The position numbers and the translations under genes were made by a program. Shown here piece by piece: positions 13,399 to 15,543 of a DNA stretch of 64,000 bases (position 1 is the first letter of the stretch; every line of letters starts with the position of its first letter). The notes beneath the pieces were generated by a model that saw nothing but the letters and a program-made list of their open reading frames with translations, had not been told where the DNA came from and ran no database searches. Source of the DNA: an uncultured Bacteroidota bacterium (lineage in GTDB: Bacteria > Bacteroidota > Bacteroidia > Flavobacteriales > Flavobacteriaceae). The stretch lies in NCBI GenBank assembly GCA_902618245.1, contig CACMZR010000002.1, positions 62,001 through 126,000 of the forward strand. Reading direction: 5' to 3'.

Positions 13399-13406
13399 TA
13401 TATTTG
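13399..13406 (+). promoter_or_regulatory. -7 box of the HU gene
   Basis: TATATTTG matches TAnnTTTG exactly and is the same octamer as in the tRNA-Phe promoter. No TTTG stands at the 19-nt spacing; the nearest ones are 14 and 28 nt away. Transcription would start near 13410 and give a leader of about 30 nt. Confidence 0.5.
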
Positions 13407-13441: not shown

Positions 13442-13735
13442 ATGACAAAAGCAGACATTGTATCAAATATATCTAACGAACTTGGAATTGATAGAGCAGA
13501 TGTGCAAGCAACAGTTGAGAAATTCATGAAAGAAGTTAAGATTTCTTTAGAAAAGGGAGAGAACGTTTACTTAAGAGGGTTTGGGAGTTTCATCATAAAA
13601 ACTCGTGCAGAAAAAACAGGCCGTAACATTTCTAGAAACGTTGCCGTAAAAATTCCTGCTCATAATATTCCAGCCTTCAAGCCTGCAAAAATTTTTGTCC
13701 AGGGAATTAAATCTAAAGTAGCTGTTCCCAAATAG
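13442..13735 (+). CDS. HU/IHF-family DNA-binding protein
   Basis: 97 residues, the usual HU size plus a few C-terminal residues. MTKADIVSNISNELG is the helical dimer segment, RGFGSFIIKTRAEKTGRN the beta-arm base, and IPAHNIPAFKPAKIF the arm tip with the intercalating proline. It bends and compacts DNA in the nucleoid. The position between mutY (divergent) and the small basic protein plus RNase G is conserved in Flavobacteriia. I cannot separate HU from IHF subtypes by eye. Confidence 0.95.
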   Translation: MTKADIVSNISNELGIDRADVQATVEKFMKEVKISLEKGENVYLRGFGSFIIKTRAEKTGRNISRNVAVKIPAHNIPAFKPAKIFVQGIKSKVAVPK

Positions 13736-13759: not shown

Positions 13760-13849
13760 ATGCCAAGTGGTAAAAAAAGAAAAAGACATAAGGTAGCGAC
13801 TCATAAAAGAAAAAAAAGATTAAGAGCAAATCGCCACAAGAAGAAATAG
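13760..13849 (+). CDS. 29-residue very basic protein, probable ribosome-associated
   Basis: ATG at 13760 opens a 29-codon frame ending with TAG at 13847-13849. It reads MPSGKKRKRHKVATHKRKK and ends RANRHKKK; over half of the residues are Lys, Arg or His. I recognise very similar short proteins between HU and RNase G in other Bacteroidetes, usually unannotated. The composition and size are like tiny ribosomal proteins such as bL36, bS22 or Thx. A link to the Bacteroidetes ribosomal protein bL38, reported in the F. johnsoniae ribosome, is possible but I cannot confirm it from memory. It lies 24 bp after the HU stop and likely shares its transcript. Confidence 0.8.
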   Translation: MPSGKKRKRHKVATHKRKKRLRANRHKKK

Positions 13850-13868
13850 TGCTAGGTAAAACACTTTA

Positions 13869-13974
13869 AACTTTTACAAAAGTTCATTGAAAAGCAACTT
13901 CAATAAATGTAAGTTGCTACAGGTAAATCCTGAAATTATTGTTTAATCAGTCACCACTTTAAAATAGTGATGAC
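13869..13974 (+). promoter_or_regulatory. Hairpin-rich leader of the RNase G gene
   Basis: Three consecutive hairpins lie in the 140 nt between the small basic protein and rng. Arms are AACTTTT/AAAAGTT (13869-13884), GCAACTT/AAGTTGC (13894-13917, 10-nt loop) and GTCACCACT/AGTGATGAC (13950-13974, one mismatch). None is followed by a T run, so they are not terminators. RNase E of E. coli controls its own mRNA through a structured leader; a similar role here is an inference. Confidence 0.5.
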
Positions 13975-13989
13975 ACAAAATTTGTCAGA

Positions 13990-15543
13990 GTGAATAAAGA
14001 ATTAATTATACGTTCAAATTCCTCTGCTGTTGATTTTGCACTGCTCAAAGATGGAAAATTAATTGAGCTAAACCAAGAGATTGAAGACAACAAATTTTCT
14101 GTAGGCGACATTTTTGTTGGCAAAATTAGAAAATCTGTTCCTGGGTTAAACGCCGCATTTGTAAATGTAGGCTATGAAAAAGACGGCTTTCTTCATTACC
14201 ATGATTTAGGCCCTAAACTCCCTTCGCTGGTTAAATACATTAAACAGGTAAGCACAGGTAAAAACAAAGATTATCTTTTAAAACAATTTCGTTACGAAAA
14301 TGAAATAAATAAAGACGGAAATATTGGAGACATTTTATCTACTAAACAAACTGTTTTAGTTCAAATTGTAAAAGAACCTATTTCAACTAAAGGCCCAAGA
14401 TTGAGTTCTGAAATTTCACTGGCTGGACGTTATATGGTTTTAATGCCTTTTTCAGACCGTGTTTCAATATCGCAAAAAATTGAAGATAAAGCTGAAAAAA
14501 GTCGCTTAAAAAAACTTGTACAAAGTATTAAGCCCAAAGGATTTGGTCTAATCATACGAACTGTTGCTGAGGGTCAAAAAGTAGCCTCTTTAGATGCAGA
14601 TATCCAACAATTGTTGACTAGATGGAAAAATTTGTCCTCTAAATTGAAACAAATTGATAAATTTCCAACGAAGGTGTTAAGTGAAATAAATCGATCATCG
14701 AGTATACTTCGAGATATTTTTGATAATAGTTTTACTGGTATTTATGTAGATGATGCAGAAATACAAAATGAAATAAGGGATTATTTAGAGACAATAGCCC
14801 CCGAAAAAAAATCAGTTGTAAAACTATATGAAAACCATCTCCCAATTTTTGAGAAATTTGGAATCGAAAGACAAATTAAGACCTCTTTTGGTAAAACAGT
14901 TTCAATGCAAAAAGGAGCATACTTAGTCATAGAACATACTGAAGCCCTACACGTCATTGATGTTAATAGCGGAAACCGATCCAATCGTTCTAAAAATCAA
15001 GAAGAGACTGCCATGGAAGTCAATTTAATAGCAGCATCTGAAATTGCAAGACAATTAAGACTCCGGGATATGGGTGGAATAATTGTGGTTGATTTTATAG
15101 ATCTAAATACTAACAATAATCGTAAAAAATTATTTGATCATTTGATTAATGAAATGAGTGAGGACAGAACTAAACATAAAATTCTGCCTCCAAGTAGATT
15201 CGGCCTCATTCAAATTACACGTCAGCGTGTAAGGCCTGAAATGAGTATAAAAACTAAAGAGCCTACTCCATCAATTAATGATGAAGTCGAAGCTCCTATT
15301 GTACTAATTGACAAAATCAACACAGAGCTTAGTAAAATTGCTAAGAATAAAAGCAATGCAAAGGAAAAGATATTTTTACATGCTCATCCTTTTGTAACTG
15401 CATTCATTTTAAGTGGAAATCCATCTTTACGCTTAAAATGGTATTTTGAATACAAAAAGTGGATTAGAATTGTTCCACGCCACGCTTATCGATATTTGGA
15501 GTTTAGATTTTTAAATAAAGATCGAAAAAGACTTCGAAATTAA
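13990..15543 (+). CDS. rng: Ribonuclease G (RNase E/G family)
   Basis: 517 residues, starting with GTG at 13990 (MNKELIIRSNSSAVDFALL). An S1 domain occupies about 36-130 with the usual insertion. The catalytic DNase-I-like domain carries HVIDVNSGNRSN and IIVVDFIDLNTNNNRKKL, whose two Asp residues bind the metal. The Zn-link cysteines (CPxCxG) of the enterobacterial enzymes are replaced by EAPIVLIDK; this is what I recall for other Bacteroidetes. It cleaves single-stranded RNA in mRNA turnover and 16S rRNA maturation. A strong terminator follows 3 bp after the stop. Confidence 0.94.
   Translation: MNKELIIRSNSSAVDFALLKDGKLIELNQEIEDNKFSVGDIFVGKIRKSVPGLNAAFVNVGYEKDGFLHYHDLGPKLPSLVKYIKQVSTGKNKDYLLKQFRYENEINKDGNIGDILSTKQTVLVQIVKEPISTKGPRLSSEISLAGRYMVLMPFSDRVSISQKIEDKAEKSRLKKLVQSIKPKGFGLIIRTVAEGQKVASLDADIQQLLTRWKNLSSKLKQIDKFPTKVLSEINRSSSILRDIFDNSFTGIYVDDAEIQNEIRDYLETIAPEKKSVVKLYENHLPIFEKFGIERQIKTSFGKTVSMQKGAYLVIEHTEALHVIDVNSGNRSNRSKNQEETAMEVNLIAASEIARQLRLRDMGGIIVVDFIDLNTNNNRKKLFDHLINEMSEDRTKHKILPPSRFGLIQITRQRVRPEMSIKTKEPTPSINDEVEAPIVLIDKINTELSKIAKNKSNAKEKIFLHAHPFVTAFILSGNPSLRLKWYFEYKKWIRIVPRHAYRYLEFRFLNKDRKRLRN

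Follow-up and report, generated by a model that had tools for sequence, protein, structure and literature searches.

Gene organization of the locus

The window, by which we mean the whole 64,000-nucleotide stretch of Flavobacteriaceae DNA analysed here, carries on its forward strand a 29-residue open reading frame (ORF) between a gene for an HU-family DNA-binding protein and rng, a gene of the RNase E/G family. Based on homology, we assign the ORF to the ribosomal protein bS22. The leader that separates it from rng (13848-13989) contains a boxA-like element and several hairpins. The features of the locus are as follows.

13399..13406, + strand: TATATTTG, upstream of HU, fitting TAnnTTTG, the Bacteroidota -7 promoter element
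13442..13735, + strand: HU-family DNA-binding protein, 97 aa, upstream of bS22 with a 24 nt gap
13760..13849, + strand: bS22 gene by homology, 29 aa, ATG to TAG (ORF, PDB match, conservation, codon statistics)
13848..13865, + strand: hairpin over the bS22 stop codon, formed by 13848-13852 and 13861-13865, with a non-standard innermost pair in this genome
13882..13893, + strand: GTTCATTGAAAA, boxA-like, identical to a 12-mer in the 16S leader of the same genome
13893..13918, + strand: 8-bp hairpin, 13893-13900 with 13911-13918, read by eye, its sequence varying between species
13920..13932, + strand: small hairpin CAGG..CCTG, nearly invariant and carrying little covariation information
13950..13974, + strand: strongly covarying hairpin, 13950-13958 with 13966-13974
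13990..15543, + strand: rng, RNase E/G family, GTG start, 517 aa, downstream of bS22

The ORF starts with ATG at 13760, ends with TAG at 13847-13849 and encodes the peptide MPSGKKRKRHKVATHKRKKRLRANRHKKK. This peptide contains 10 lysines, 6 arginines and 3 histidines, with K+R accounting for 16/29 residues (55%) and K+R+H for 19/29 (66%). Proteins of the bS22 class are described as about 30 amino acids long and 55-65% positively charged (PMC10085706), and the peptide has this length and charge. One match to it was found in its own genome. Neither Pfam nor NCBIfam listed a model for the peptide, even at E 10.

Identity as ribosomal protein bS22

A phmmer search of the PDB, taken up to E 10, returned three sequences and nothing beyond them. 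The closest (7jil_5, E 2e-11) comes from what we take to be the F. johnsoniae ribosome. It belongs to the same length class and is identical at 28/29 residues, with A in place of L21 as the sole substitution, and the same sequence is also present in 9oz9, 9ozn, 9ozz and 9p0e. The other two were 9i5v_10 (E 1.8e-9) and 8fmw_V (E 1.6e-5), the latter named 30S ribosomal protein bS22 in 8FMW, the Borrelia 70S ribosome. A profile built from 23 relatives hit the same three sequences only, up to E 10, and neither Actinobacterial bS22 nor mS38. The 70S ribosome of F. johnsoniae is reported to contain bS22 (PMC10618245, PMC10085706); the protein is not mentioned in the main text of a later paper on this ribosome (PMC9976891). 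The initial annotation had proposed a ribosomal component, and this was right, with a near-identical chain in ribosome structures and a reported F. johnsoniae bS22. By homology, the ORF encodes bS22, a protein of the small ribosomal subunit.

The 7jil_5 sequence bears two molecule names in the PDB, 30S ribosomal protein S22 and 50S ribosomal protein L38. If the second name were correct, the peptide would be bL38, a protein of the large subunit. However, bS22 and bL38 of F. johnsoniae are described as two distinct proteins, the former a helix in a 30S pocket and the latter made of beta strands and located in the 50S subunit near uL6/H95 (PMC10618245). Because of this separation, the L38 name looks like a naming slip. 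Given also the S22 name of the same sequence and the bS22 name of the Borrelia match, we consider bL38 a very improbable identity for the peptide.

A peptide this basic might also be a non-ribosomal nucleic-acid-binding or antimicrobial peptide whose composition is happenstance. Free C. acnes bS22 does inhibit bacterial growth and cell-free translation (PMC10085706), and the gene adjoins that of HU. Nevertheless, the near-identical chain belongs to ribosome structures, and the invariant columns of bS22 (11/29 in an alignment of 23 rows) fit packing against rRNA, which leaves a non-ribosomal function extremely unlikely.

In Borrelia and F. johnsoniae, bS22 is a helix in a pocket formed by 16S rRNA helices h2/h27/h44/h45 and touches H68 of 23S rRNA (PMC10618245). 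Both bS22 and mS38 contact h44 beside the decoding centre and form an extra subunit bridge (PMC10618245, PMC10085706, PMC6582356). Because the peptide is near-identical to a relative of solved structure, we assign the pocket and the bridge role to it as well. It would be a basic helix buried in the h2/h27/h44/h45 pocket and reaching H68, where it may stiffen the top of h44 and add a subunit bridge. From this likeness we infer that bS22 binds the ribosome in the source species.

The peptide had also been put forward as a candidate lineage-specific protein, which proved wrong. The bS22 of Borrelia burgdorferi (8fmw chain V), from another phylum, is 68% identical to it, and both C-termini read THKRKK..NRHKK; the Borrelia gene is unannotated in the genome and has a GUG start (PMC10618245). 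Actinobacteria likewise have bS22, with 37% identity between the C. acnes and F. johnsoniae proteins (PMC10085706). The Actinobacterial bS22 of M. smegmatis and C. acnes, mS38 and eL41 occupy the same pocket and have a comparable role (PMC10085706, PMC10618245, PMC6582356). Both mS38 and eL41 are described as bS22 counterparts (PMC10618245), and these two could be convergent (PMC6582356). The COX24_C model (PF08213) did not match the peptide; its sole match in the genome lay on another contig with an E of 0.97, below the cut-off. Kinship with mS38 thus rests on published structures, the sequence tests made here having given no match. In the PDB, the relative 9i5v_10 is labelled 'AURKAIP1/COX24 domain-containing protein', which reads like a database annotation and implies that some pipelines do call such genes. 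The breadth of bS22 outside the phylum is taken here from papers and the PDB. The protein is already described and nothing in the peptide itself is novel, so that the words 'candidate' and 'missed' in the initial annotation overstate the case.

Conservation and protein-level selection

The bS22 peptide was found in 52/60 near relatives (E up to 0.001) and in 377/392 genomes sampled across the phylum, all at least 90% complete (E up to 0.1), and its conservation extends well beyond close strains. When the eight near relatives without a match were searched again with a bS22 family profile, two gave partial matches, to residues 1-14 at a contig start (G057) and to residues 1-11 (G018); the remaining six are assemblies that are 54-82% complete. 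A genome of about 0.3 Mb (G051, listed as 100% complete, with a contig of 344,793 bases) retains bS22, located 33 nt before rng.

The DNA of the ORF varied far more than its product. Among 29 congener loci, 27 distinct DNA sequences encoded only 4 peptides, and the initial annotation was right to place almost identical peptides at this position in other Bacteroidetes. Variable sites at codon positions 1, 2 and 3 numbered 5, 3 and 23, respectively, of 29 each. The pN/pS ratio at these loci was 0.051 (compared with 7.3 and 16.6 when the other two frames are read), indicating strong protein-level constraint within the genus, as the suggestion of selection on the peptide had anticipated. The ratio was 0.119 across 71 more distant loci, represented by one or a few per family, and 0.132 over all 129 loci, for which the other frames gave 1.9 or more. 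These codon-position statistics and the conservation rule out a spurious ORF: bS22 is a real gene, strongly conserved far beyond chance.

The neighbourhood was conserved as well, and the synteny implied by the initial annotation was found in most loci. In 155 bS22 loci, selected non-randomly to spread over genera and families, the fetched stretch contained a same-strand HU relative upstream in 132 (at most 200 nt away in 98), and an RNase E/G relative lay downstream in 104. Within f1, the family of the source genome and probably Flavobacteriaceae, HU was found at most 200 nt upstream on the same strand in 72/73 loci and RNase E/G downstream in 72/73, the two exceptions being contig ends. In several other families (L064-L130), HU was located about 500-1150 nt upstream of bS22, leaving room for an inserted gene.

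Losses of bS22

The 15 of 392 genomes without the peptide comprised all 7 sampled from family f50, 5/9 from genus g108, 2 from family f32 and 1 from family f61. A profile search of these 15 genomes with E up to 10 found nothing credible for bS22; a 13-residue match in G366 (E 0.7) was inside a 305-residue frame.

The loss was clean in g108, where it affected five of the nine sampled species. Compared with the locus of a bS22-bearing congener (L192, G208), the five loci without the gene (L193-L197; G331, G446, G343, G284 and G395) had HU proteins with 91-96% identity and retained the gene that flanks bS22 opposite HU, with 72-81% identity over 216 residues. The interval between HU and this neighbour was now about 90-185 nt and contained no bS22 match. 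Since the gene has been cleanly lost there, bS22 is dispensable, at least in g108. With the peptide missing or undetected in 15/392 genomes and one genus showing clean loss, bS22 is not universally essential.

For f50, loss is a less secure conclusion, as its loci lack established synteny. The seven f50 genomes (G204, G252, G256, G366, G380, G392 and G425) are near-complete and gave no bS22 with either the single sequence or the profile. Five of them had an HU relative, and these five loci, with a GC content of 61-66%, yielded no hit to bS22 with E below 0.3. The basic segment that follows HU in L199 was rejected as bS22, as it was out of frame and inside another gene. The absences in f32 and f61 may be gaps in fragmented assemblies of 210-450 contigs. 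A link between bS22 loss and acidic proteins was also rejected: the ratio of Asp+Glu to Lys+Arg was 1.3-1.8 at five loci of g108, the losing genus, and 1.6-1.7 at the two overlapping loci (L112, L192) of a congener that keeps the gene, and with implausible frames at two high-GC loci the acidic reading is a lead only.

Transcription of HU and bS22

The element TAnnTTTG was present before HU in each of the 27 congeners in which the three genes are all seen (1.7 expected from shuffles), at -41 to -43 in all 12 for which its position was read. It was found in none of the 27 gaps between HU and bS22 (0.1 expected) and in none of the 27 gaps between bS22 and rng, where 1.7 were expected and the absence is weak evidence. 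The presence of the element upstream of HU and its absence from the gaps favour a promoter before HU, from which HU and bS22 are probably transcribed together. A strict -33/-7 promoter pattern was of no use here, with 6 occurrences over the 64-kb window (5.4 expected) and none at HU. Within the family, the transcript, or readthrough past the hairpin at the bS22 stop codon, would run on into the rng leader, and this hairpin could separate the HU-bS22 mRNA from rng.

A conserved boxA-like element in the rng leader

The gap between bS22 and rng is about 140 nt long and includes invariant blocks. GTTCATTGAAA and GTTTAATC were invariant in the gaps of 26 congeners, and the stretches between them varied. 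The alignment comprised 26 of the 29 congeners, with L004, L021 and L027 left out. The motif GTTC[AT]TTGA (GTTCWTTGA) occurred in 72/72 bS22-rng gaps of the family, representing 17 genera, compared with 0.15 expected from shuffled gaps; one further locus (L027) has the box itself but was dropped from this count, its rng being past the contig end. In the 72 gaps, the distance from the end of the box to rng ranged from 92 to 287 nt. The motif was found in 0/32 bS22-rng gaps of other families, and among the loci examined the boxA-like rng leader element, at the bS22/rng junction, is confined to the family of the source genome.

The 16S leader of the source genome contains the identical 12-mer GTTCATTGAAAA, located some 119 nt upstream of the 16S gene, and the likeness between the two leaders covers these 12 nt and no more. 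We built a box profile from the rng leaders, with one vote per genus, and ran it on one 16S leader per genome in 17 genomes; four further genomes were searched and gave no 16S match. Fifteen 16S leaders of the family had 200 nt or more of upstream sequence, and in 14 of these the best hit was located at -110 to -161. Fourteen of the 15 best hits were equalled by at most 9/500 shuffles, and that of L168 by 38/500. The outliers in position were L169 (best hit at -281), L173 (124 nt available, no hit) and L174 (another family, -88).

The box could be a chance word in a gap that holds ordinary hairpins only. The 11-mer GTTCATTGAAA occurs 7 times in the genome, against 5 for the reversed control, which is chance level, and 1/32 gaps outside the family reaches a box profile score of 8 or more. 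Since the bare word is at chance level genome-wide, the case for the box rests on its conservation and position. The recurrence of the box in every family gap and in none outside, the ability of a profile made from rng leaders to pick up 16S leaders and the covariation of the leader structure described below all argue against chance, and we regard this explanation as improbable.

The box resembles the boxA of rrn operons, for which the gamma-proteobacterial consensus is GYTCTTTAANA (PMC5725501), and its identity as a boxA of Bacteroidota is putative, being judged by likeness to this consensus from another lineage. The suhB leader of Enterobacteriaceae offers a parallel: this mRNA leader has an rrn-type boxA, and Nus factors act on it (PMC5725501). 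The rng leader differs from that of suhB in its gene, its phylum and its added hairpins, and also in the position of the box, which is 92-287 nt before the start codon, whereas the suhB survey used a window within 50 (PMC5725501). In the open-access papers returned by our boxA searches, no title or abstract opening pointed to an rng leader.

Structure of the rng leader

A structure of three helices (17 pairs) fitted the leader alignment with 93.8% of cells paired (86.4 in shuffled alignments). Pairs changed on both sides numbered 8 (4.8 in shuffles, with 3/500 as high), and there were 40 double-change cells (10.6 in shuffles, 0/500 as high). The covariation score was 0.297, compared with 0.147 for shuffles, and slid versions of the structure were only 22-48% paired. 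As the structure was derived from the alignment on which it was scored, it is somewhat favoured in these figures. Nearly all of the covariation came from the third helix, where 7 of the 8 pairs showed changes at both positions; helices one and two hardly vary and are uninformative in this respect. The hairpin at 13893-13918 was kept outside the covariation count on account of register shifts between species.

Outside the genus of the source genome, a terminator-like hairpin followed by a T run was present between bS22 and the box in 42/44 family loci (15/16 genera); it was found in 0/28 loci of the genus itself. In family f5, the gaps (L061, L146-L149) have no box and, as read by eye, a hairpin, ATATAGTTGG..CCGACTATATTTT in 4/5 and a shorter variant in L148, which is probably a terminator.

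Rfam gave three matches for the leader, all far below gathering scores, and none in 10 loci. Folding z-scores for the sequence past the box averaged -4.3 in 27 of the 72 gaps and were set aside as non-specific because scores were low in most of the 15 outside-family gaps examined as well; that most of these outside gaps fold better than shuffles also speaks for the view of the gap as ordinary hairpins. A consensus fold suggested that the box pairs with the rng start codon; this was rejected, since GTTCATT forms 5-7/7 pairs and GTTCTTT 4-6, with no compensation.

Possible control of RNase G

The 5' UTR of E. coli rne mediates autoregulation by self-cleavage, and the rng leader may similarly be a site at which RNase G cleaves its own mRNA, with the box common to 16S leaders since RNase G acts on both. 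The leader immediately precedes rng and combines structure with AU-rich single strands. The box is shared by 16S and rng leaders, and loss of rng in E. coli alters processing of the 16S leader (PMC10250234). On the other hand, the likeness to the 16S leader in the source genome is limited to the 12 nt at the box and does not extend to any other part of the 16S leader. We consider self-cleavage unlikely, though a reading to be kept in mind.

Control of RNase G by Nus factors is what the boxA-like sequence would suggest. We tentatively propose, at somewhat less than even confidence, that RNase G is a target of the Nus complex in this family: NusB-S10 would bind the leader boxA, which is accompanied by a conserved group of hairpins, and synthesis of the rRNA-processing nuclease would be tied to free S10/NusB, that is, to ribosome assembly.

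Discussion

For the locus as a whole, we are highly confident that the best explanation combines bS22 identity and its predicted pocket role with probable co-transcription with HU and a boxA-like rng leader. The bS22 result is mainly confirmatory and indicates that bS22 can be recognized by a reader from the bare sequence. What has been gained is its distribution, with the protein in 377/392 sampled genomes of the phylum, one genus with clean losses and one family in which it went undetected. Both the bS22-rng leader with its boxA-like signal and the bS22 losses may be new, and the leader and the clean losses are the points that we would follow up. Species without bS22 are natural mutants for probing its role. 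The rng leader would matter more than the peptide: if Nus factors act there, boxA control would reach, in a phylum described as doing without Shine-Dalgarno pairing (PMC10931766), an rRNA-processing nuclease.
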